Positions 36,262 through 46,452 of a stretch of DNA of 64,000 nt are shown in pieces. The notes below the pieces were generated by a model. The model was not told the DNA's origin. It did no database searches and saw only the letters and a program-made list of their open reading frames with translations. The position numbers and the translations under genes are program-made. The stretch comes from Alphaproteobacteria bacterium (GTDB lineage Bacteria > Pseudomonadota > Alphaproteobacteria > Ferrovibrionales > Ferrovibrionaceae). Each line of letters begins with the position of its first letter. Within the stretch, counting starts at the first letter, position 1. The stretch is taken from assembly GCA_017307375.1 (NCBI GenBank), contig JAFKFH010000004.1, positions 248,001-312,000 on the forward strand, in the 5' to 3' direction.

Positions 36262-36975
36262 TCAGGCAAACCGGATCGGGGCCGAGAAGACCAGCCCGAC
36301 CGCCTGCACGGTCTGCACGGGCAGTTGCCGGCCGGTCGCCGCGAGCGTCTTGCGGCGCAGGCGGCGGATGGTCGCGTCGAGGCCGCGGCTTTCCGGGCCG
36401 AGGACGTCGTGGCCGAGCAGGCGGATCAGTTCGTTGCGCGGTACTGGAATGCCGCCTTGTGCCGCCAGCCGCTCGACCAGCTGCATTTCCTTGGCGGTGA
36501 GCTGCACCGTCTGCGCGCTCGGGGCGATCAGGCGCCACTGCACGCGGTCGAGCACCCAGGGGGTCTTTTCACCGGTGGCGATGGTGATTGCCGGCTCGGC
36601 CGTGCCGGTGCGCTCGCCCAGGCGCCGGGCGAGATTGGTGATGGCCAGGACCAGTTCCTTCGGGTCGACCGGCTTGACGAAATAGAGATCGGCGCCGTTG
36701 GTGAAGCCGCGGATGCGATCTTCCGCCTGGCCCCGCCCGGTCATGAAGATGATGCCGAGGCTGGTCTTTTCGGCCAGGAAGCCCGCTATCGAATAGCCGT
36801 CCCGGTCCGGCAGGTTGACGTCCAGCACCGCGATGTCGAACGCCGACGCGGCGAGTTCCTGGTAGAATTCGAGGGCGGAACCGACGCCGGACGCCGCCAG
36901 CCCGGACAGCCGCAGGCATTCGATCAGGCCGTCCCGCAGATCGGCGTCGTCTTCCACGACGATCACGTTGGTCAC
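36262..36975 (-). CDS. Response regulator with winged-helix output (OmpR-like)
   Basis: A 237-aa regulator. Receiver motifs: VVEDDADLRDG, phosphorylated Asp in AVLDVNLPDRDGYSI, IIFMTGRG and FVKPVD. The C-terminal part (TAKEMQLVERLAAQGG...DATIRRLRRKTLA...VQTVQAVGLVF) is a winged helix with the OmpR pattern. I chose GTG 36975 because GGGGG lies 8 nt upstream; an in-frame ATG at 37011 is the alternative. Divergent from the 7TMR kinase across about 90 bp, so they form a likely pair. Confidence 0.85.
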   Translation of the reverse strand: MTNVIVVEDDADLRDGLIECLRLSGLAASGVGSALEFYQELAASAFDIAVLDVNLPDRDGYSIAGFLAEKTSLGIIFMTGRGQAEDRIRGFTNGADLYFVKPVDPKELVLAITNLARRLGERTGTAEPAITIATGEKTPWVLDRVQWRLIAPSAQTVQLTAKEMQLVERLAAQGGIPVPRNELIRLLGHDVLGPESRGLDATIRRLRRKTLAATGRQLPVQTVQAVGLVFSAPIRFA

Positions 36976-37067
36976 CGATGCACCCCCTCTACCCCGTCGC
37001 GATCTCAGCAAGTGGTCCGCGAGATACTGCTGCGCTATACCCTGATCGACCTGTCAGAGGAAGGTAG

Positions 37068-39122
37068 ATGACGCGGCGACGCTGGGATGGCCTGATCGTG
37101 GTGCTGGGGTTGCTGGCGTCGCTGCTGCTGACGGGGCTGCCCGGACCGGCCGCGGCACAGCCGGTGCTGCGTTTCGGTCCGGCGGACCGGACCGCGTCGC
37201 TGAACGGCCACATGGCCCTGCTGCTCGATCCGGGCGGCCGCCATGCGCTCGGCGACGTGATCGCCCTGCCGCTGCGCGACCGGTTCGAACCCTTGCCGGT
37301 CAATCTCAGCCTGGGCTACACCCCGGTCACCGCGTGGATCCGGATCGTCCTGGAAAACACCGGTCCGGCATCGCGCCCGCTCTACCTCGAACTCGAGCCG
37401 GCCTTTCTCGATCATGTCGACGTCTTCAGCCCGGCGGTGGCGGTTCCGTCCGGCGCCGCCGACTTCCGGGAGATCCGGTTGGGCGATCATGTCGCAGTCG
37501 ACGACAAGCCGGTTTTCAGCATCAACAATGTCGTGCCGATCGACCTGCCGCCGGGCCAGGCGCGCGCCTACTACATTCGGCTCCAGACGAGCAGTTCCCT
37601 GATGCTGCGCGGGGCGGTCCGGACCAGCGCCAGCCTGAACCGCCACACGGCCGACATCCTGCTGGCGATGGGCCTCTATGTCGGGCTGGCCGTGGCGGTC
37701 GCGGCGATCAACCTGATCTTCTGGCTTTGGGTCCGATCGCGCACCCATCTGTGGTACGCCGCCTATGTCCTGTCGCTGGCGGCCAGCGCCGCGGCCATCG
37801 CCGGGGTCGTACCGATCTGGCTGTTTCCGGGGCACCCGGCATGGTCGGATCTGGTGGTCGGCAGCTCCAGTTTCCTGGCCTGTACCACCTGCAGCTATTT
37901 TGCGATCCATTTGCTGGAGACGCGGCAGCGGTCGCCGATCCTGCATTGGGTCTATCACGTGACCGCGATCTACGGGCTTGTCGGCGTCGCCGCGACGTTC
38001 CTGGGCTATTACCAGACCCTGGCCGGCACGCTGATGGTCGGGGGCGTGATCGCGCTGTTCAGCGCCGCCGGCCAGAGCTACCGGCTGGCCCGGCAGGGGT
38101 TCGCCCCGGCCAAGCTGTTCCTTATCTCGTTTGCCGCCCAGCTGGTCGGGCTGACCGTCAACGTGGCGCGGGTGGTCGGGCTGCTGCCGACGCTCGAATG
38201 GACCGACTACAGCTACCAGGCGGCGTCGGCCATCCACATGATCCTGATGAACATCGGCCTCGCGCAGCGCATGAAGGAGGCTGACAATCGTGCCCGGCTT
38301 GCCCAGGCCGAGGCCCTGGCGCTGGCCCAGCAGGCCGAATTGCGCGCCCAGGCCATCGCGACCGAGCGAACGCGCGACCTCGCGGCGGCCAAGCAGCGGG
38401 CCGAGGCCGCGCTGGCCGCCGAGCAGGAGGCGCAGCGGGCGCAGGTGCGCTTCATCGACGTGATTTCCCACCAGTACCGCACCCCGCTTTCGGTCATTGC
38501 GACGAACATCGAGGGCATCGGCATGAGCCTTGCCGAAGCCGATGCGCCGAATCGGCGGCGGATCGACCGCATCCGCCGCGCGGTCGGCCGTCTGGTGGCG
38601 ATGATCGACGTCAGCCTCAACCGCAGCCGGCTGGACGGCCAGCCGCTGGCCCCGCAACTGCGCCCGCTGGCCCCGGCCCCGATGCTGCGCCAGGCGGTCC
38701 AGCGGGTGCGGGATGCGACCGGCGATCGGATCATCGGCCTCGAATTCGACGACAGCGTGGACGCGGCCGTCCTGCTGGCCGATTCCGAGATGATCGAACT
38801 GGCCCTGACTAATCTGATCGAGAATGCGCTGAAGTTCTCCGATGCCGACCGGCCGGTCGACGTCACGGCCAAGGTCGAGCGGGGGGCGCTGCGGATCGAC
38901 GTGCACGACCAGGGCATCGGCATCCCGCAGGCCGAGCTCGGCCAGATCTTCGGCAAGTTCTATCGCGCGGCCAACGCCGCCAGCCGGCCCGGTGTGGGCA
39001 TCGGGCTGCAGCTGGTCGCCCAGCTGGTCCGGGCGCATGGCGGGCAGGTGACGGTCGACAGCGCCGAAGGCCGCGGCTCGACGTTCTCGATCATCCTGCC
39101 GCTGGCCACGATCCCGGCCTGA
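37068..39122 (+). CDS. 7TMR-DISM sensor histidine kinase
   Basis: A 684-aa kinase. A Sec signal peptide precedes a periplasmic 7TMR-DISMED2 domain (about residues 35-185, carbohydrate-binding-like), seven TM helices (about 195-395), a coiled coil, then HisKA with VISHQYRTPLSVIATN and HATPase (NLIENALKFS, DQGIGIP, GVGIGLQLV). It should phosphorylate the divergent response regulator. A GAGGAAGG ribosome site sits before the ATG. The ligand of the DISMED2 domain is unknown. Confidence 0.88.
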   Translation: MTRRRWDGLIVVLGLLASLLLTGLPGPAAAQPVLRFGPADRTASLNGHMALLLDPGGRHALGDVIALPLRDRFEPLPVNLSLGYTPVTAWIRIVLENTGPASRPLYLELEPAFLDHVDVFSPAVAVPSGAADFREIRLGDHVAVDDKPVFSINNVVPIDLPPGQARAYYIRLQTSSSLMLRGAVRTSASLNRHTADILLAMGLYVGLAVAVAAINLIFWLWVRSRTHLWYAAYVLSLAASAAAIAGVVPIWLFPGHPAWSDLVVGSSSFLACTTCSYFAIHLLETRQRSPILHWVYHVTAIYGLVGVAATFLGYYQTLAGTLMVGGVIALFSAAGQSYRLARQGFAPAKLFLISFAAQLVGLTVNVARVVGLLPTLEWTDYSYQAASAIHMILMNIGLAQRMKEADNRARLAQAEALALAQQAELRAQAIATERTRDLAAAKQRAEAALAAEQEAQRAQVRFIDVISHQYRTPLSVIATNIEGIGMSLAEADAPNRRRIDRIRRAVGRLVAMIDVSLNRSRLDGQPLAPQLRPLAPAPMLRQAVQRVRDATGDRIIGLEFDDSVDAAVLLADSEMIELALTNLIENALKFSDADRPVDVTAKVERGALRIDVHDQGIGIPQAELGQIFGKFYRAANAASRPGVGIGLQLVAQLVRAHGGQVTVDSAEGRGSTFSIILPLATIPA

Positions 39123-39124
39123 CG

Positions 39125-39826
39125 CTATCCGGCGTGGACGCCGAAGATCGTGCCGACCGCGGCCGTGACGCCCATGGCCAGTGCGCCCCAGAACGTGACC
39201 CGTACCGCGCCGCGCAGCACGCCGGCCCCACCGGCCGAGGCACCGAGGCCGCCCAGCACGGCCAGCGCCACGATGGTCGACGCCGCGACGATCAGGCTGG
39301 TCTTGCCCGCCGGGGAAACCAGGGCGGCCAGCACCGGGATGACGGCACCGGCCGCGAAGGTGAGCGCCGAGACGATCGCCGCCTGGATCGGGCGGGCCGC
39401 CGTGGTTTCGGTGATGCCGAGTTCGTCGCGGGCATGGGCCGCAAGGGCATTGTGGCCCGAGAGCTGGGCGGCGACCCGCTCGGCCAGATCCCGGTCCAGC
39501 CCGCGATCGACATAGATCTGCGTGAGTTCCTCCAGCTCGGCCTTCGGCGCCGCCGCCAGCTCGCGCCGCTCGCGCGCCAGGTCGGCGGTCTCGGCATCGG
39601 TCTGCGAACTGACCGAGACGTACTCGCCGGCTGCCATCGACATCGCGCCGGCCACCAGGCCGGCCAGGCCGGCGATCAGGATCTCGGCCGAGCCCGACCC
39701 CGCCGCCGCGACCCCGACCACCAGGCTCGACGTGGAAACGACACCGTCGTTGGCGCCCAGCACCGCGGCGCGCAGCCAGCCGATCCGGTGGACCATGTGG
39801 GTTTCGGCATGCGATCGGCGGTTCAT
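39125..39826 (-). CDS. VIT1/CCC1-family iron/manganese transporter
   Basis: A 233-aa membrane protein with about five TM helices. The hallmark GWLRAAVLGANDGVVSTSSLVVGV is near the N-terminus, followed by GLAGLVAGAMSMAAGEYVSVSSQ, which holds the metal-path Met and Glu residues, and a charged cytoplasmic loop (about 75-135) typical of metal-binding VIT domains. It probably moves Fe2+ or Mn2+ out of the cytoplasm. Last gene of the DUF2271-PepSY-ApbE-VIT operon, overlapping apbE by 4 nt. Confidence 0.9.
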   Translation of the reverse strand: MNRRSHAETHMVHRIGWLRAAVLGANDGVVSTSSLVVGVAAAGSGSAEILIAGLAGLVAGAMSMAAGEYVSVSSQTDAETADLARERRELAAAPKAELEELTQIYVDRGLDRDLAERVAAQLSGHNALAAHARDELGITETTAARPIQAAIVSALTFAAGAVIPVLAALVSPAGKTSLIVAASTIVALAVLGGLGASAGGAGVLRGAVRVTFWGALAMGVTAAVGTIFGVHAG

Positions 39827-40788
39827 GAATGATTTCCTTGCTGCAACTCGAACACCGGCCCGAAGCCCCGGGCGCGCAGCCTACCGTCTTTGCCGCGCAG
39901 CAGGAACAGCGCATCCAGGCCCTGCCGCACGGCGAGCGCGCCCCCATTCTCGGGACCGAGGACCATCAGGGCCGTGGCCCAGGCATCGGCGGCGGCGCAG
40001 GTCGGCGCCAGCACCGTGACCGATGCCGGCGCGTCCGGCAGCGGCGCGCCGCGGCGTGGGTCGACGGTATGCGACAATCGCCGCCCCTGCACCTCGACCC
40101 AGTGCCGGTAGTCGCCCGACGTGGCCACCGCGCCCGTCGCGAGCCACAGCCGCGAGTGCGGCGCCCGACGGTCGGGGTCCGGCTGCTCGACCGCGATGGT
40201 CCAGCCCTCGTCGTCGTCCCTGGTGCCGATGGCGCGGATCTCGCCGTCGATGCCGACCAGGCCGCGGTCGATGCCGAGGCCGGCCAGCGTCTCCGCCAGG
40301 CGGTCCACGCCGTAGCCCTTGGCGATGCCGTTGAGGTCGAGGCGCAGGGGCGACAATTTCCTAACCGTGCCGCTGCCGAGTTCGATGGCCTCGAAGGCGG
40401 GCGGGCGGCGGGCGGCCAGGGCCGCACGGATCAGCGCCGGTTCCGCGGCATCGGGACCGAAACCCCAAGCGGAGATGACGTCGCCGACCCCGATGTCGAA
40501 GGCACCGCCGGATGTCCGGCCGATCGCCAGCGCCAGCGTCAGCACGGCCAGCAGCGCCGGCGGGACGGCCACCGTCTCGCCGACCGCCGCGCGGTTCAGG
40601 CGCATGAGGTCGCTGTCGGGCCGCCATGTCGACATCTGTGCGTCGACCTCGTCCACCGCCGCTTGCAGTGCCTGCCGGGCGGCGGCGATGTCGAAGCCGC
40701 CAGCCGCATGGATCACCGCGGACCAGCGCGTGCCCATGGTCGGCCCGTTGAGGGTGTGACGGACGCGATCAGTAGACGTCTTCGACAT
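39823..40788 (-). CDS. apbE: FAD:protein FMN transferase ApbE
   Basis: A 321-aa enzyme that attaches FMN through a phosphoester bond to Ser/Thr in Dxx(S/T)GA(S/T) motifs of target proteins. Visible motifs: GPTMGTRW, AFDIGVGDVISAWGFGP, LDLNGIAKGYGVDRLAE and HTVDPRRGAPL. Unusually it has no signal peptide or lipobox: the ATG at 40788 is preceded in frame by TGA. The first 20 bp overlap the upstream PepSY-reductase gene. The likely target is the DUF2271 protein of the same operon. Confidence 0.9.
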   Translation of the reverse strand: MSKTSTDRVRHTLNGPTMGTRWSAVIHAAGGFDIAAARQALQAAVDEVDAQMSTWRPDSDLMRLNRAAVGETVAVPPALLAVLTLALAIGRTSGGAFDIGVGDVISAWGFGPDAAEPALIRAALAARRPPAFEAIELGSGTVRKLSPLRLDLNGIAKGYGVDRLAETLAGLGIDRGLVGIDGEIRAIGTRDDDEGWTIAVEQPDPDRRAPHSRLWLATGAVATSGDYRHWVEVQGRRLSHTVDPRRGAPLPDAPASVTVLAPTCAAADAWATALMVLGPENGGALAVRQGLDALFLLRGKDGRLRARGFGPVFELQQGNHS

Positions 40789-42976
40789 AGCGCCCCTCGG
40801 TTCTCAGCTGCGCCAGCGAAAGGCCTTGGCGTTCCAGCAGTCGCGCGATCGCTTCGGCGACGCCGGCGGCCATCGCCCTGCCCCCGCAGACCATGATCCG
40901 TCCGCCATGGCGGACGGCATCCAGGATCGCCGTCGGATCGGCGGCGAGCGCGTCCTGGACATGGCGGGGGCTTGCGCCGCGCGACGATGCGGTCGTGAGC
41001 GTCGCGAGCCTGCCGTCGGCAAGCCAGCCCGTCAGCGCGTCCCCGTAGAGGAAATCGCTGTCGGGGTGGCGCATGCCGAAGATCAGATGGATCGCGCGAC
41101 GTCGGGTATTGGCGCGCACGAAGCCGGCCAGCGGCGCGATGCCCGTGCCGGCGCCGACCAGCACAAGCGGCGTGGCCGCGTTCCCGGCGTGAAACTGCGG
41201 GTTGCGGCGCAGGAAGGCATCGACCTTGCCGCCGCAGGGCAGCGTCGTCAGTTGACCCGAGCAGAGACCGCCGGCCTGTCTGCGCACCGCGATTTCGAGG
41301 AAGCCATCGTCGCTGCCGGAAGCCAGCGAATAGAAGCGCGGTACGGCCGAGCCCGCGGGCACGATGCCGAGCAGATCGCCGGCCTGGAACCGCGCAAAAC
41401 CGCTGCCCGACAGGCAGGCGGCGAAGGACGTGCCGGGGATGGCGAACCGAAGGATGGTCGCGGGTGCCTGCACGTCCTGGCCGAACTCGCGGCGCGCGAC
41501 GAGGGTGAGCGGCACGGTCGCCGGCGGCGCCGGCCGATGGTCGAGTTCCAGGGCGATTCCGAGCGCCGCGCCGAGGGCGCTGCCCCAGCGGGCGAAGGCC
41601 TGAGGCGACTGGCGATCCACGGTGGCGAACGGCAGCAGGGGCTGCCATCCCTTGGCCCGGGCGGCAGCCTCGACCCGGCGCGCATAGCCGCAGAAATCGG
41701 GAAAGCCGCTGTCCCCGAACCCCAGCACGGCCAGCGGCGCCGCCGGTGCCGCGGCCATGCCGGCGAGGCGGTCCAGGAAGCGATCGGCGGAGGCGGGCGC
41801 GGCGCCGTCGCCATAGGTCGCGGCCAGGATCAGGTAGCGGCGCGCGGCGGTGGTGCGCGCCGGGTCGAACGACGACATCGGCGCGACATGGACAAGCTGT
41901 CCCGCACGGGTCAGTGCCCGGTGCAGCGTCGCCGCAAATCCCCAGGTGCTGCCGCCCTCGCTGCCGACCAGGATCACGGTTTCGGCCGGCGCCGCGGCGG
42001 CATTGCCGGTGACGCGGGGCTTGCCGCGGCGTGCGGCGAGCCAGACCGCGAGGCCGGTGGCGCCCATTGCCGGCACGGCGAGGGCGGTGACGCCGAGTAG
42101 CAGCGCCAGGACCGGCACGCCCCGCCCGGTATGCAGCATGTAGACGGTTTCGGAAGCCTGCGCCCACCATCCGTCTTCCGACCAGCCGAGCGTCGCGCCC
42201 GTGCCCTGGTCGACGTAGCCGGTGCCCTGGCTGGTCTTCAGGGTGAAGACGTCGGTCCTGTCGCCGGCGGCCGGGAAGTCGAGCCGGCGCAGGCTGGCGA
42301 CGGGGATGGACACGAGCGCCGGGATTTCGGCGACCGGCGCCCCGGTCAGGCCGCTGGCGGGCGGGATGGGCCGGGGCGGTGCGCCCTGGTCGGGGAGAAG
42401 CCCGAAAGTCGATGCCGCAAGCCACAGCGCCGTCACCGACGACAGCAGCAGGCCGGGAACCGCCAGCCGTGCCATCTCGGTATGGATGCGGCCCGGCAGC
42501 GGACCCCTCAGCGGGCGGAACCAGCGGCGCCAGCCGCCGACGCGGCGCGCGACCAGCAGGCTGCCCGAGAGGGTCAGCAGCAGCATGATCGCCGCGCCGC
42601 CGGCGGCGCCGATGCGGCCGGCATCGCCCAGGAACAGGGCACGGTGCAGGTTGGTCAGCCACCGCTCCAGCGGATCCGGCGCGGCGGCCGCCACCGCCGT
42701 CGCCGTGACCGGGTCGATCACGGCAGAACCGGCGACACCGTCATCGGTCCAGTAGGCGGTGATCCTGCCCGACGGCGCGCGCCTGATCTGCTCGATCCCC
42801 GGATGGGCGGCCTGCAGGCCGGCCGCCAGTTCGGCGACGCTCATGCCCGGCGCCGCCTGCGGGGCGACGAGGCGCTCGGCGGCGGGGAACACGGACAGTG
42901 CCGCGCCGCTGAGCGACAGCGTGGCGACGAGCGCCAGCGCGGCAATGCCGGGCCAGCGATGCGCGGTGCGGATCAT
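40769..42976 (-). CDS. PepSY / flavodoxin / NADPH-reductase fusion membrane protein
   Basis: A 735-aa inner-membrane flavoreductase. The N-terminal half is a PepSY-TM protein with about four helices (near residues 10-30, 120-140, 170-190, 295-320) and a periplasmic PepSY domain after TM1. The cytoplasmic half has a flavodoxin domain (VILVGSEGGSTWGFA near 340, LAATYGDGAAP, VLGFGDSGFPDF) and an FAD/NADPH reductase domain (PRFYSLASG, LVLVGAGTGIAPLAGFV, IHLIFGMRHPDSDFLY, IMVCGGRAM). It could pass electrons from NADPH to the periplasm. It follows the DUF2271 gene by 7 bp. Confidence 0.88.
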   Translation of the reverse strand: MIRTAHRWPGIAALALVATLSLSGAALSVFPAAERLVAPQAAPGMSVAELAAGLQAAHPGIEQIRRAPSGRITAYWTDDGVAGSAVIDPVTATAVAAAAPDPLERWLTNLHRALFLGDAGRIGAAGGAAIMLLLTLSGSLLVARRVGGWRRWFRPLRGPLPGRIHTEMARLAVPGLLLSSVTALWLAASTFGLLPDQGAPPRPIPPASGLTGAPVAEIPALVSIPVASLRRLDFPAAGDRTDVFTLKTSQGTGYVDQGTGATLGWSEDGWWAQASETVYMLHTGRGVPVLALLLGVTALAVPAMGATGLAVWLAARRGKPRVTGNAAAAPAETVILVGSEGGSTWGFAATLHRALTRAGQLVHVAPMSSFDPARTTAARRYLILAATYGDGAAPASADRFLDRLAGMAAAPAAPLAVLGFGDSGFPDFCGYARRVEAAARAKGWQPLLPFATVDRQSPQAFARWGSALGAALGIALELDHRPAPPATVPLTLVARREFGQDVQAPATILRFAIPGTSFAACLSGSGFARFQAGDLLGIVPAGSAVPRFYSLASGSDDGFLEIAVRRQAGGLCSGQLTTLPCGGKVDAFLRRNPQFHAGNAATPLVLVGAGTGIAPLAGFVRANTRRRAIHLIFGMRHPDSDFLYGDALTGWLADGRLATLTTASSRGASPRHVQDALAADPTAILDAVRHGGRIMVCGGRAMAAGVAEAIARLLERQGLSLAQLRTEGRYVEDVY

Positions 42977-42983
42977 CGGCGAC

Positions 42984-43451
42984 CTACAGGCGATAGCCGA
43001 AGCCGGCGACGTAACGGCGACCCGGCACGGTCTGTCCGCTGGCCGCCTTGGTCAGCGGCACCGCGATCTCGTTCGGGGCGTCGCGCATGTCCTCGACCGC
43101 CGTGTCGACATGGACGGTGTAACCGGCATCGAACAGCGCATCGGCCAGCTCGACCGAGACCTCGAGCGTGCGTCCGGAACCGACGCTGGCGCCGGTGATG
43201 CCGTCGATCGCGCCGCGGCCGCCGGTCGCCCGATACCAGTCGCTCAGATGCTCGTAGTATTTCGCCTTGCGGCCGGCGACCCACAGCGTCCGGGCATAGG
43301 CGCCCTTGGCATCGGTCAGGTAGATCGCGACATAGGCGCCGTTGCCGCCATAGTTCTTCAACGTGGTGGTGAGCGTCACCGGCCGCGCCATGGCGAGGCC
43401 GGGACAGACCAGGGCGGTGGTCAGCGCCAGGACGGCGAGCATCCTTTTCAT
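42984..43451 (-). CDS. Exported DUF2271 protein with a flavinylation-like motif
   Basis: A 155-aa periplasmic protein. Signal peptide is residues 1-22 (ending GLAMA). The body matches DUF2271: NGAYVAIYLTDAKGAYARTLWVAGRKAKYYEHLSDWY. Residues 83-89, DGITGAS, fit the ApbE target motif, making S89 the likely FMN attachment residue. It is the first full gene of an operon with a flavoreductase, ApbE and VIT. Its ATG overlaps the stop of a 17-codon leader frame (ATGA). The redox role is inferred. Confidence 0.85.
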   Translation of the reverse strand: MKRMLAVLALTTALVCPGLAMARPVTLTTTLKNYGGNGAYVAIYLTDAKGAYARTLWVAGRKAKYYEHLSDWYRATGGRGAIDGITGASVGSGRTLEVSVELADALFDAGYTVHVDTAVEDMRDAPNEIAVPLTKAASGQTVPGRRYVAGFGYRL

Positions 43452-43501
43452 CGCGCATCATCCTCGTGCGACCAAAGCCGCGGAGCGAATTCAGTGTTCA
43501 T
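43448..43501 (-). CDS. 17-codon leader frame coupled to the DUF2271 gene
   Basis: The frame MNTEFAPRLWSHEDDAR-stop starts at 43501 behind an excellent GGAGG site spaced 7 nt from its ATG. Its TGA overlaps the ATG of the DUF2271 gene (ATGA). The DUF2271 start has no comparable ribosome site of its own within the 17 codons, so ribosomes probably arrive through this leader. There is no signal peptide; the product itself may be irrelevant. Confidence 0.5.
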   Translation of the reverse strand: MNTEFAPRLWSHEDDAR

Positions 43502-43544
43502 GGCAGGACCTCCGGTTTCACTGACCCCGGTTCTGCCAGCCCCG

Positions 43545-43600
43545 GCTGATCGCTTCCTGACGAAGCCGGCGTTTCCGCTTCAGCCTGGCGTCAGGAAGCG
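43545..43600. promoter_or_regulatory. Four-box operator A, upstream of the DUF2271 operon
   Basis: CTGA boxes start at 43546 and 43557, 11 bp apart. TCAG boxes (the same motif inverted) start at 43580 and 43591, also 11 bp apart. The outer part forms a perfect 12-bp inverted repeat, CGCTTCCTGACG at 43551-43562 and CGTCAGGAAGCG at 43589-43600. The spacing is typical of dimers of OmpR-family regulators. The same layout recurs at 43970-44019. It lies 44 bp upstream of the leader frame start. Confidence 0.65.
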
Positions 43601-43614
43601 ACCGGGCAGGGCGG

Positions 43615-43920
43615 TCAGGATGGCTTGTCCCGGCGCCGGCCGCGGTCGTCCTTGTCCTTGAATTCGATCGCGAGAATTTCCAGGGTCGACGGATGAACGG
43701 TCGCCTCGAGCCGCCGGCCGTCGCCGTCGCTGCCCTGGATTTCGTAGCAGCCGTCGTCGATCTTGATCCGCCGCACCGACCAGCCCTGCCGTGCCGCCAG
43801 CGCCGCGACGGCCTCCCGCGGCTGCCAGTCGGCCATCGGCACCGAGCATTTGTCGCCTGCCAGGGCGGCGCCGGCCTGGAAGGCCGCGACAAAGGCGAGA
43901 ATTGTCAACGCCGGGCGCAT
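43615..43920 (-). CDS. Small exported PepSY-domain protein
   Basis: A 101-aa periplasmic protein: signal peptide of about 21 residues, then one PepSY domain (REAVAALAARQGWSVRRIKIDDGCYEIQGSDGDGRRLEATVHPSTLEIL) and a short charged tail. Two Cys (DKCSV and DGCYEI) may form a disulfide. Proteins of this kind commonly sit beside two-component pairs that sense metals or cations. It is divergent from the response regulator gene at 44064 and upstream of the DUF2271 operon. Confidence 0.82.
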   Translation of the reverse strand: MRPALTILAFVAAFQAGAALAGDKCSVPMADWQPREAVAALAARQGWSVRRIKIDDGCYEIQGSDGDGRRLEATVHPSTLEILAIEFKDKDDRGRRRDKPS

Positions 43921-43968
43921 GCGCCATGACTCCCTTTTTGAGGACTTGCCGCCATCCTGCGGGCCGAA

Positions 43969-44019
43969 GCTGACGGCAGGCTGAAGCGCTCCTCCCGCGT
44001 CGCGTCAGCCGGCCGTCAG
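43969..44019. promoter_or_regulatory. Four-box operator B, between the PepSY gene and the response regulator
   Basis: CTGA boxes start at 43970 and 43981 and TCAG boxes at 44005 and 44016, each pair 11 bp apart. Read in the same sense, CTGACGGCAGGCTGAAGCG here and CTGACGCCAGGCTGAAGCG in operator A differ at one of 19 positions. It ends 45 bp before the response regulator ATG and begins 49 bp before the PepSY start on the other strand, so it can serve both directions. Confidence 0.65.
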
Positions 44020-44063
44020 GATGACCTGCCAGGAATGGGCGTGGCCGTGGAAGGCGTTGGACC

Positions 44064-44723
44064 ATGCGTATGCTGCTTGTCGAGGACGATGCCGTGCTGG
44101 GCGCGGCGGTGCGCGACCAGATCGTGGCGGACGGTCATTCCGTCGACTGGGTGACGCGCCTGGATGCCGCGCGCGACGCCCTGGCGGCCGCGCATCACGA
44201 CCTGGTCCTGCTCGACCTCATGCTGCCCGATGGTCTCGGCATCCCGTTCCTGAAGTCGCTGAGGGCGGCGGGCGAGGCGACGCCGGTGATCATCCTGACC
44301 GCGCTGGACCAGGTGTCGGACCGCATCGCCGGGTTGAAGGCGGGGGCCGACGACTACCTCGTCAAGCCGTTCGACCTCGACGAACTTTCCGCCCGCATCG
44401 GCTCGGTGGCGCGGCGCTATGCCGGCAATCCCAACCCGATCATCCGCCATGGCGCGCTCGACATCGACATCGCCCGGCGCAGCCTGAGCCGCGCCGGGCG
44501 CCCGGTGCAGCTGACCGCCCGCGAATGGGCGCTGCTCGACGCCTTCCTGGCCCGCCCCGGCCAGATCCTGTCGAAGGCGCAGCTGGAAGAGAAGCTCTAC
44601 GATTTCGATACCGAGATCGACAGCAACACGATCGAGGTGCATGTCAGCCGGCTGCGCAAGAAGCTCGGCGCCGAGCTGATCCGGACCGAGCGCGGGCTGG
44701 GCTATCGGCTGGCCCCGGCATGA
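44064..44723 (+). CDS. OmpR-family response regulator (QseB/PmrA-like)
   Basis: A 219-aa DNA-binding regulator. Receiver: LLVEDDAVLG, D in LVLLDLMLPDGLG (about residue 51), T in IILTALD, and YLVKPFD. Output: OmpR winged helix with LTAREWALLDAFLARPGQILSKAQLEEKLY and DSNTIEVHVSRLRKKLG. Its stop overlaps the kinase ATG (ATGA). Two copies of an 11-bp-phased operator flank the neighbouring PepSY gene and are its likely targets. The activating signal is unknown. Confidence 0.92.
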   Translation: MRMLLVEDDAVLGAAVRDQIVADGHSVDWVTRLDAARDALAAAHHDLVLLDLMLPDGLGIPFLKSLRAAGEATPVIILTALDQVSDRIAGLKAGADDYLVKPFDLDELSARIGSVARRYAGNPNPIIRHGALDIDIARRSLSRAGRPVQLTAREWALLDAFLARPGQILSKAQLEEKLYDFDTEIDSNTIEVHVSRLRKKLGAELIRTERGLGYRLAPA

Positions 44724-46060
44724 GGGGGCCGCGCAGCCTCCAGGGCCGGCTGCTGCTGTCGCTCGGGGCGATCCTGCTGGTGATCTGGGCGGGCGCGGCC
44801 TGGGCCACGGCGATGTTCCTGCGCCACGAGATCGGGGAAGTCTTCGATTCCTCGCTGCAGGAGACGGCCCAGCGCCTGCTGCCGCTGGCGGTGCTCGACA
44901 TCGTCGGGCGGGAAGAGGGCGATGCCGCGACCCAGCGCCTCGCCGCGATCCGCAGCCATGACGAACGCCTGACCTATGTCGTTCGCGACGACAAGGGGCA
45001 GATCCTCATCCGCTCGCATGCCGCCGACCCCGCGGCCTTCCCGCCTTATGACGGCCCCGGTTTCCGGCGTACGGCGGGCTATCGCCTCTACAGCGAGGAA
45101 GCCTTGCAGGGCAGCGTCATCGTCACGGTCGCGCGCAGCCTGGCCCATCAGGACGGCATCGTCCGCGAGATGCAGATGGCGCTGGGCCTCTCGGTGCTGC
45201 TGGTGCTGCCGCCGGCCTTCGCCGCGATCGCCTTCGCGGTCAGAAGCGGCACCCGGCCGCTGCGCCGGTTCCGCGAGCAGCTGGAAACGCGCAGCGAACG
45301 CGACCTCGCCCCCGTCGCCGCCGGCGACCTGCCCAGCGAGATCGTCCCGCTGGCCGCGACGATGAACGCGGTGCTCGAAAGACTGCGCGCCGCGTTCGAG
45401 GCCGAGCGCAGCCTGGCGGCCAACACCGCCCACGAACTGCGGACGCCGCTGGCCGGCGCGATCGCCCAGGCCCAGCGGATCCGCAAGGAGACGGCCGAGC
45501 CGGCCACGGCGCGGCGGGGCGCCGAGATCGAGGCGGCGCTGAAGCAACTGGCTCGGCGCGCCGAACGGCTGATGCAGCTGGCGCGCGCCGAAGGCGGGCG
45601 GCTCGAGGGGGAGGCGCAGGCCGATCTGCGGGAAACCGTCGCCATCGTCGCCGGCGATCTCGCCGCCGCCGAACCGCCGGGCCGCCTGCGGCTCGATCTG
45701 CCGGATGCGCCGGTCCCGTCGCGGGTCGATCCGGATGCGGTGGGCATCGTCTGCCGCAACCTGGTCGAGAATGCGTTGCGTCATGGCGACCCGGCGGCGC
45801 CGGTCGACGTCCTCCTGTCGCCGGACGGCACGCTGACGGTCGCCAATGACGGCCCGGTCGTGCCCGAAGCGCTGCTGGCCCGGCTTTCCCAGCGCTTCGA
45901 GCGGGGCGGACAACCCGGCCGGGGCAGCGGGATCGGCCTGTCGATCGCCGCCACCATCGCCGACCGCATCGGCGGCCGGCTGGTGCTGAGATCGCCGCGG
46001 ACCGGCGGCAGGGCGGGCTTCGAAGCCAGCCTGCGCTTTCCGGGCGACAAGGCCCGCTAA
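44720..46060 (+). CDS. Sensor histidine kinase partner of the QseB/PmrA-like regulator
   Basis: A 446-aa inner-membrane kinase. TM1 about 15-37, a periplasmic sensor of about 110 residues (QseC-like, with RLTYVVRDDKGQILIRS and YRLYSEEALQGSVIVTVA), TM2 about 150-170, HAMP-like linker, HisKA with AANTAHELRTPLAGAIAQ, and HATPase with CRNLVENALRHG and GSGIGLSIAATIADRIGG. Co-translated with the regulator. Its 3' end overlaps the convergent AhpD-like gene by 4 bp. The sensor closely follows the QseC/TctE family pattern; the ligand is unknown. Confidence 0.9.
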   Translation: MRGPRSLQGRLLLSLGAILLVIWAGAAWATAMFLRHEIGEVFDSSLQETAQRLLPLAVLDIVGREEGDAATQRLAAIRSHDERLTYVVRDDKGQILIRSHAADPAAFPPYDGPGFRRTAGYRLYSEEALQGSVIVTVARSLAHQDGIVREMQMALGLSVLLVLPPAFAAIAFAVRSGTRPLRRFREQLETRSERDLAPVAAGDLPSEIVPLAATMNAVLERLRAAFEAERSLAANTAHELRTPLAGAIAQAQRIRKETAEPATARRGAEIEAALKQLARRAERLMQLARAEGGRLEGEAQADLRETVAIVAGDLAAAEPPGRLRLDLPDAPVPSRVDPDAVGIVCRNLVENALRHGDPAAPVDVLLSPDGTLTVANDGPVVPEALLARLSQRFERGGQPGRGSGIGLSIAATIADRIGGRLVLRSPRTGGRAGFEASLRFPGDKAR

Positions 46061-46452
46061 GCGTCGAACATCGGGTCGACCGGCACGCGGTAGCCCGCGG
46101 CCAGCCGGTTGGTCTCGTTGGCCATGCCCACGATCGCCATCAGTTCGCCGAACATCTCGGGCGTCATGCCGGCCCGGGCGGCCGCCGCACCATGGCTGGC
46201 GATGCAGTAGTCGCAGGCATTGGTGACGCTGACGGCGAGATAGATCATTTCCTTGACGACAGGGGGCAGCGCGCCCGGCCCCATCACCTGGCGCAGCGAG
46301 TCCCAGGTGCGGCGCAGGCCGGCCGGATCGTTGGCGAGGTATTTCCAGAAATTGTTGACGTCGGCCACGCCGCGCGCGGCCTTGATCTCGTCATAGACGG
46401 CGCGGACCTCGGGTCCGGCCTCGGCGTAGTCGATCGGGCGGGGCTTGCTCAC
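46057..46452 (-). CDS. Carboxymuconolactone decarboxylase/AhpD-family protein
   Basis: A 131-aa all-helical cytoplasmic protein. The redox CxxC with downstream His is present: VTNACDYCIASHGAAA (about residues 78-93), as in AhpD-like peroxidase partners. It probably acts as a thiol reductant or peroxidase rather than a true decarboxylase. It is monocistronic and convergent with the kinase gene. Confidence 0.85.
   Translation of the reverse strand: MSKPRPIDYAEAGPEVRAVYDEIKAARGVADVNNFWKYLANDPAGLRRTWDSLRQVMGPGALPPVVKEMIYLAVSVTNACDYCIASHGAAAARAGMTPEMFGELMAIVGMANETNRLAAGYRVPVDPMFDA

Follow-up and report, generated by a model that had tools for sequence, protein, structure and literature searches.

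The stretch of DNA analysed here, 64,000 nucleotides from an alphaproteobacterium of the family Ferrovibrionaceae (assembly GCA_017307375.1, contig JAFKFH010000004.1, positions 248,001 to 312,000; hereafter the window), contains at 39125-46060 a module of seven genes that reads, at the level of sequence, as a periplasmic flavin relay controlled by its own sensor pair. An exported DUF2271 protein, a PepSY membrane reductase, the flavin transferase ApbE and a VIT-family metal transporter are combined with a small PepSY_2 protein, a response regulator and a histidine kinase, and the promoters share a repeated operator. The flavin core is known, as is the pairing of a small PepSY protein with a sensor pair; the sensor-controlled subtype, its operator and the contradiction posed by its ApbE are new. 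The preferred explanation of the whole, in which a flavin electron relay of known kind serves a response to metal stress, has about even chances, given the gene content, operator, motifs and co-occurrence.

Shared operator and conserved neighbourhood

Each of the seven genes matches at least one Pfam family over the cut-off, and their order is as first described. DUF2271 (42984-43451), the PepSY fusion (40769-42976), ApbE (39823-40788) and VIT (39125-39826) are packed tightly on the minus strand, with overlaps of 20 bp between ApbE and the fusion and 4 bp between VIT and ApbE. PepSY_2 (43615-43920) lies on the same strand, and the regulator (44064-44723) and kinase (44720-46060), which overlap by 4 bp, are on the plus strand, divergent from PepSY_2.

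The pattern CTGAMG-N5-CTGAMG has three sites in the window, all in promoters of the module, compared with a mean of 0.03 in 100 shuffles. The site of the flavin operon (CTGACGCCAGGCTGAAG, 43578-43594, minus strand) is followed downstream by a degenerate mirrored pair, the end of which was set by eye, giving an operator of 43546-43594. Between the regulator and PepSY_2, the motif search found a face-to-face double operator (43970-44019) with one half on each strand (43970-43986, plus; 44003-44019, minus). Relatives were collected by a protein search of GTDB contigs that gave 251, of which the best 80 were kept; with one locus from a family genome these made 81 loci (labelled by L-numbers), reduced to 46 at 95% DUF2271 identity, a sample picked by similarity to the window DUF2271. 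These 46 loci contain 97 operator sites at a spacing of 5 and only 0-5 at every other spacing from 0 to 15, and at least one site is present in 39 of 43 regulator/PepSY intergenic regions. When all 180 permutations of CTGACG were tried as exact repeats, the motif and its reverse complement gave 15 sites each and their one-base shifts 8, 8, 4 and 4; no other permutation had more than two.

A mirrored pair (at least 10 of 12 matches) lies 32-33 bp downstream of 92 of the 102 sites (45 loci including the window), and neither a same-strand pair downstream nor a mirrored pair upstream was found at a similar distance from any of the 102. In this count a double site with two exact halves was scored once per side, and five of the 46 loci were omitted (L003, L041, L047, L050, L077), two of which (L041, L047) have the regulator and no exact site. 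Since the mirrored pair is so regular, the full operator is, as read from the aligned sites, a face-to-face double pair: CTGACG-N5-CTGAAG, about 15 bp, then CTTCAG-N5-CGTCAG. Start codons found after the operator lie 88-103 nt from its start in 58 of 60 cases. The exact double site occurs in only 4 of 385 genomes of the class, the window included (reversed control, 0). Three of the four lie between the regulator and the small PepSY gene and the fourth (L103) between the PepSY gene and DUF2271, and all are within sensor-type modules. A dedicated regulator is supported because the operator is shared across the module, is conserved and has its double sites confined to such modules. The original prediction had called the module operator-linked and a single regulated unit with its own two-component pair; the linkage, kept in relatives, bears out the first statement, and the divergent regulator at most 400 bp away together with the shared operator argues for the second.

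The regulon looks local, because sites outside the module in the source genome are at control level: a loose site occurs seven times in that genome and its reversed control five times, so that the four sites outside the module, considered as a wider regulon, are no more than chance. When two mismatches were allowed, 10 operators were found and 5.8 expected, which swamps any signal. The conserved operator makes the regulon directly testable. One of the three double sites between regulator and PepSY gene is on an 8.9-kb contig (L101, 1261-4216), where a sensor pair, a PepSY gene and a cytochrome b gene accompany the operator and no DUF2271 match was found. This arrangement suggests that the flavin operon was added to a sensor-PepSY-cytochrome unit of earlier origin.

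In 43 of the 46 loci the regulator gene diverges from the small PepSY gene upstream of DUF2271, at a distance of no more than 400 bp. The three exceptions are cut off on the regulator side: L003 is 3.4 kb long and has a longer copy (L105) with the regulator pair, L050 ends just beyond the PepSY gene and operators, and L077 starts 1.4 kb upstream of DUF2271. The original prediction was to fall if related genomes did not conserve the neighbourhood, and this sequence half of the test does not speak against it. A less biased sample, the 385 class genomes, has DUF2271 at E 0.001 in 39 and over the cut-off in 19. Four of the 19 have the sensor pair (the window, L102, L103 and L150). In another 14, a distant DUF2271 is near an ApbE match with no regulator match and one weak kinase match, and ten of these also match the PepSY protein. 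The 6-kb contig of L151 combines a DUF2271 of 32% identity with ApbE and PepSY reductase and lacks the sensor pair. Exact operator sites are present in all four sensor-type loci and, in the stretches fetched, in none of the other 15, which sets the sensor-controlled class of DUF2271 apart from the published Fur-type class. DUF2271 of the sensor-controlled kind is common on plasmids, with matches in 97 PLSDB records; 71 are typed as conjugative, and a single Pseudosulfitobacter group accounts for 38.

As the original prediction stated, ApbE-linked PepSY and DUF2271 clusters had been surveyed before. The PepSY-like clusters share the DUF2271 motif, the PepSY membrane protein, ApbE and VIT1 with the module, VIT1 being reported in 167 of them, and 1077 PepSY membrane proteins with a NAD-binding domain were counted (Meheust et al., 2021, PMC8238504). 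The features by which such clusters were recognised are found here too, a PepSY_TM gene (PF03929) clustered with ApbE and DUF2271 and a target with a signal peptide (DUF2271, by hydropathy). Unlike those clusters, the present module has a divergent sensor pair, a small PepSY_2 gene, a shared operator and an ApbE without export signal, and no DUF4198 is seen in it. In the open-licence papers searched, no sensor pair or operator was found described for DUF2271 clusters.

Predicted electron relay and flavin attachment

The PepSY_TM protein is fused to flavodoxin and CysJ/CPR-like reductase (NAD-binding) domains (Pfam; NCBIfam and PDB sequence matches). Its C-terminal half resembles CysJ and NADPH-cytochrome P450 reductase in sequence and predicted fold (NADPH, reduced nicotinamide adenine dinucleotide phosphate) and keeps a conserved SR...VQD stretch, which we take to be the NADPH-binding stretch of that family. 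The model of the fusion (mean predicted local distance difference test, pLDDT, 83.6; predicted template modelling score 0.57) has four long helices in the membrane half. Four histidines (H6, H111, H165, H282), invariant in 24 of 24 alignment rows, sit in the model near helix ends as expected for two hemes, and heme binding is predicted. DUF2271 (PF10029, 123.9 bits versus a cut-off of 27.3), the presumed carrier of flavin mononucleotide (FMN), has an N-terminal hydrophobic stretch. Its residues 84-89 form a GITGAS motif that does not vary in any of 23 rows; the flavinylation motif [S/T]GA[S/T] is thus present as TGAS in every row, and experiments on another DUF2271 showed flavinylation at this motif (PMC8238504). 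Based on the likeness to CysJ and P450 reductase, the four histidines and GITGAS, a path from NADPH through flavin adenine dinucleotide (FAD), FMN and two hemes to FMN is a well-supported prediction, and the earlier claim that electrons pass from NADPH through the membrane reductase stands in that predicted form. The same arrangement with two hemes has been reported for FoxB (PMC11334425; PMC13038864). FoxB-type di-heme PepSY_TM reductases and CrpH have the four membrane helices and four invariant histidines that the model gives here, whereas the present protein is fused to cytosolic flavodoxin and NADPH-reductase domains and is paired with DUF2271. The PepSY protein also contains a TGAT-like stretch, which was discounted since the residues at its end differ from one relative to another (judged by eye).

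Which side of the membrane receives FMN attachment is a directly testable question posed by ApbE (PF02424, 259.5 bits versus 25.6), which has no recognisable export signal. Export was scored by the highest hydropathy of any 12-residue stretch within the first 40 residues, for up to eight candidate starts and with a threshold of 1.6. The threshold was reached by none of the 45 ApbE proteins of the sensor-controlled subtype (the window and 44 related loci), so that by hydropathy none shows the N-terminal export or lipoprotein signal of a periplasmic ApbE. The exported controls all reached it (DUF2271, 48/48; PepSY_2, 47/47), as did 4 of 47 regulators, the cytosolic control, and 3 of 13 ApbE proteins of the other DUF2271 class. 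Most ApbE proteins are secreted and act on secreted targets, and the known cytosolic ones serve cytosolic fumarate reductase, according to a review (PMC12052999). A search of the source genome (7.54 Mb, 41 contigs, completeness listed as 100) gave one ApbE match, one DUF2271 match and no FMN_bind match. The sole ApbE found in the genome looks cytosolic, and the sole known kind of substrate found looks exported; either FMN would be joined before export, or ApbE would leave the cytosol by an unrecognised route.

For this clade, it is conceivable, though we incline against it, that a never-exported ApbE attaches FMN covalently to DUF2271 in the cytosol and that DUF2271 then leaves through Sec already flavinylated. 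This tentative reading is based on the 45 of 45 signal-less ApbE proteins, a DUF2271 signal that is hydrophobic and without twin arginines, the single ApbE and the missing FMN_bind. The DUF2271 model (mean pLDDT 67, kept out of fold searching) leaves the loop around GITGAS (residues 67-91) at pLDDT below 50, which is weak support for modification of an unfolded chain, with which such a loop would be compatible. If true, flavinylation in the cytosol would turn round the order generally accepted for exported substrates of ApbE.

A proposed role in metal stress and its rivals

The regulator belongs to the OmpR family (Pfam, NCBIfam), and its nearest NCBIfam models are both under the cut-off (PmrA, 202.8 versus 330; QseB, 195.6 versus 345), as are the equivalogs of the kinase (QseC, 138.5 versus 475; PmrB, 133.3 versus 314). 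The kinase has a 2CSK_N and a HAMP domain. Close to the membrane it carries an ExxE (E37, E40), as do 32 of 45 kinases, the window included; a periplasmic Exx(x)E is a motif of the iron-sensing kinases BqsS and PmrB (PMC12666569). PepSY_2 (PF13670, 95.6 bits versus 24.3; export by hydropathy) is, as in DbfQRS-like systems, a small exported PepSY protein no more than four genes from a kinase or regulator. DbfQ, a PepSY protein, is reported to control its neighbouring kinase (PMC12714742), and UipA, another, to bind metal (via review, PMC8963506). DbfQRS and BqsRS share with the module the small exported PepSY protein adjoining a regulator and kinase, and an opposite-strand arrangement is mentioned there too (PMC12714742; PMC12666569); here, unlike there, a flavin relay and a metal transporter are linked and the operator is different. 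The UipA system likewise has a PepSY protein adjoining a two-component pair and a metal link. However, UipA, which comes from an actinobacterium, spans the membrane once and has its PepSY domains in tandem, and the part of the review consulted reports no flavin genes with it (PMC8963506).

The last gene of the flavin operon encodes a VIT1/CCC1-type protein (PF01988, 221.9 bits versus 28.1), a predicted transporter. VIT is linked in 17 of the 46 loci, after an ATPase, after ApbE or after the kinase. Some relatives have a heavy-metal P-type ATPase downstream, preceding VIT; such ATPases occur in 17 of the 46 loci, 13 of them at 65% identity or more, and two of these 13 (L015, 9694-10048; L042, 9602-9778) hold, by hand check, only fragments between ApbE and VIT, which suggest that the ATPase may have been lost repeatedly. 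Two kinds of heavy-metal ATPase accompany the modules, one with TPC and the other with SPC and HEGG, two motifs that characterise the P1B-4 class. Known exporters include iron-transporting P-type ATPases and the VIT-like MbfA (PMC7762939). In the stretch 43440-44070 of the window no iron box stands out, the best Fur, Irr, RirA and Mur strings being equalled or beaten in 105, 295, 275 and 215 of 300 random stretches, respectively.

Excess-metal stress (Fe2+/Mn2+) is preferred over Fur-type iron uptake with roughly even confidence, because the VIT and ATPase are of exporter kinds, the kinase has ExxE, PepSY proteins have metal and kinase precedents and no iron box stands out. The kinase would read a periplasmic signal, most likely excess metal, with Fe2+ as the best guess, and PepSY_2 would probably be its periplasmic partner. 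The regulator would bind CTGACG-N5-CTGAAG pairs that face each other across roughly three helical turns, in the promoters of PepSY_2, the flavin operon and the regulator's own operon. The flavin operon would then move electrons from NADPH via FAD, FMN and two hemes to FMN on the exported DUF2271, which may in turn reduce Fe(III), some other oxidised metal or an oxidant in the periplasm, and VIT would carry Fe2+ or Mn2+ out of the cytosol.

Several observations weigh against this explanation. In 29 of the 46 loci VIT was not found, and in 33 there was no ATPase reaching 65% identity, although the sequence of many loci stops shortly beyond ApbE. ExxE is missing from 13 of the 45 kinases, and DbfS, the kinase of a comparable PepSY-linked pair, is reported not to respond to Fe(II) or Fe(III) (PMC12714742). 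FoxB is neither among the sequence matches of the PepSY fusion (E 0.001) nor among the 50 fold matches listed. The cytosolic-looking ApbE would fit poorly with simple periplasmic flavinylation. The Cupriavidus, Klebsiella, Marinobacter and Xanthobacter versions lack the exact operator, the best matches in the beta-/gammaproteobacterial and Xanthobacter versions being 10-11 of 12, a figure that stands without a control set. Finally, clusters of VIT1 and PepSY have been read as serving iron uptake (Meheust et al., PMC8238504).

That published reading, which also takes in TonB receptors, is the basis of a first rival: the flavinylated DUF2271 would reduce periplasmic Fe(III), VIT or another carrier would import Fe2+, and the sensor pair would report periplasmic iron. 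Fur control in Shewanella and Caulobacter (PMC8238504) and the importance of the Caulobacter DUF2271-PepSY genes under ethylenediaminetetraacetate (EDTA; PMC12004947) are in its favour. However, these published cases belong to the other DUF2271 class, that of 14 of the 19 class genomes, which is without the sensor pair or operator, and the random-level iron boxes of the window and the exporter kinds of VIT and P1B ATPase also count against it; for the present module, an iron-uptake reductase is rather improbable. Similarly doubtful is a defence of the envelope against redox or oxidative stress, in which the electrons would serve repair or the removal of oxidants together with the relatives' cytochrome b genes, metals being secondary. 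Cytochrome b561-like or ferric-reductase-like genes are in 26 of the 46 loci (by script, with fragments and a weak downstream match in L042 included), the L101 contig combines sensor pair, PepSY, cytochrome b and operator, and Bordetella has a PepSY_TM protein that supports its heme-copper oxidases (PMC13038864); such a defence nevertheless leaves the recurrent linkage of VIT and ATPase unexplained.

Further versions vary in gene content. In Xanthobacter, VIT is convergent with ApbE. On Klebsiella and Marinobacter plasmids (L154, L156), VIT follows the PepSY reductase and lacks a neighbouring ApbE; phosphonate-type genes and an additional AraC regulator are close by. The module is also present in Cupriavidus metallidurans CH34 (L153, 9250-15637), where apbE is Rmet_5388 by coordinates; the disruption of Rmet_5388 in a strain of raised metal resistance carries little weight, as that strain has many other changes.

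Probable gene loss and the surroundings of the module

In relatives, the interval between the PepSY gene and DUF2271 often contains two further genes, one cytochrome b561-like or ferric-reductase-like and one for a small exported protein with a C-terminal tail resembling APPxNGLFGxGxxPKVxVN (NGLF tail). The tail is present in 39 of the 46 loci (hand count, a minus-strand match in L014 dropped), its carrier being Asp-rich in some loci and a PepSY protein in others (L029); examples are L008 5571-5960, L015 5610-5960 and L029 5537-5956. Three Asp-rich carriers tested gave no Pfam or NCBIfam match. The window has no cytochrome b-type gene, NGLF-tailed gene or P-type ATPase between its genes. In the source genome, an NGLF-tailed PepSY protein used as the single query matched nothing beyond the module's own PepSY_2, and no heavy-metal ATPase exceeded 40% identity to that of the relatives.

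A 17-codon open reading frame (43448-43501, minus strand), the stop of which overlaps the start of DUF2271, was taken in the original prediction for a leader of the flavin operon. Its good ribosome-binding site and the overlap would allow coupling in this genome; nonetheless, a working regulatory leader peptide is highly improbable. No similar peptide precedes DUF2271 in any of the 81 loci, and a search of 18 family genomes for the coding pattern FAPRLWSHE gave a single hit, in the window. The third operator of the window, the ribosome-binding site and the start codon (GGAGGTCCTGCCATGAA, start 93 nt from the operator) align with the start of the relatives' NGLF-tailed gene (e.g. GGAGATCCTGCCATGAA), which is 93-94 nt from the operator in L023, L024 and L030. 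In five loci (L032, L043, L053, L054, L064) DUF2271 itself begins 97-99 nt from an operator, so that no leader is needed there. The reading frame is most likely a deletion remnant, namely the beginning of a former gene that encoded an exported NGLF-tailed protein.

Within 43400-44100 nothing matched a sigma-70-type promoter or a terminator, and three proteins searched against PHROGs had no match. The module is bordered on both sides by convergent genes: at 36262-39122, a further response regulator and a 7TM-DISM kinase, which ends 2 bp from the stop of VIT, and at 46057-46452, an AhpD-like (CMD) gene, the end of which overlaps that of the sensor kinase by 4 bp.

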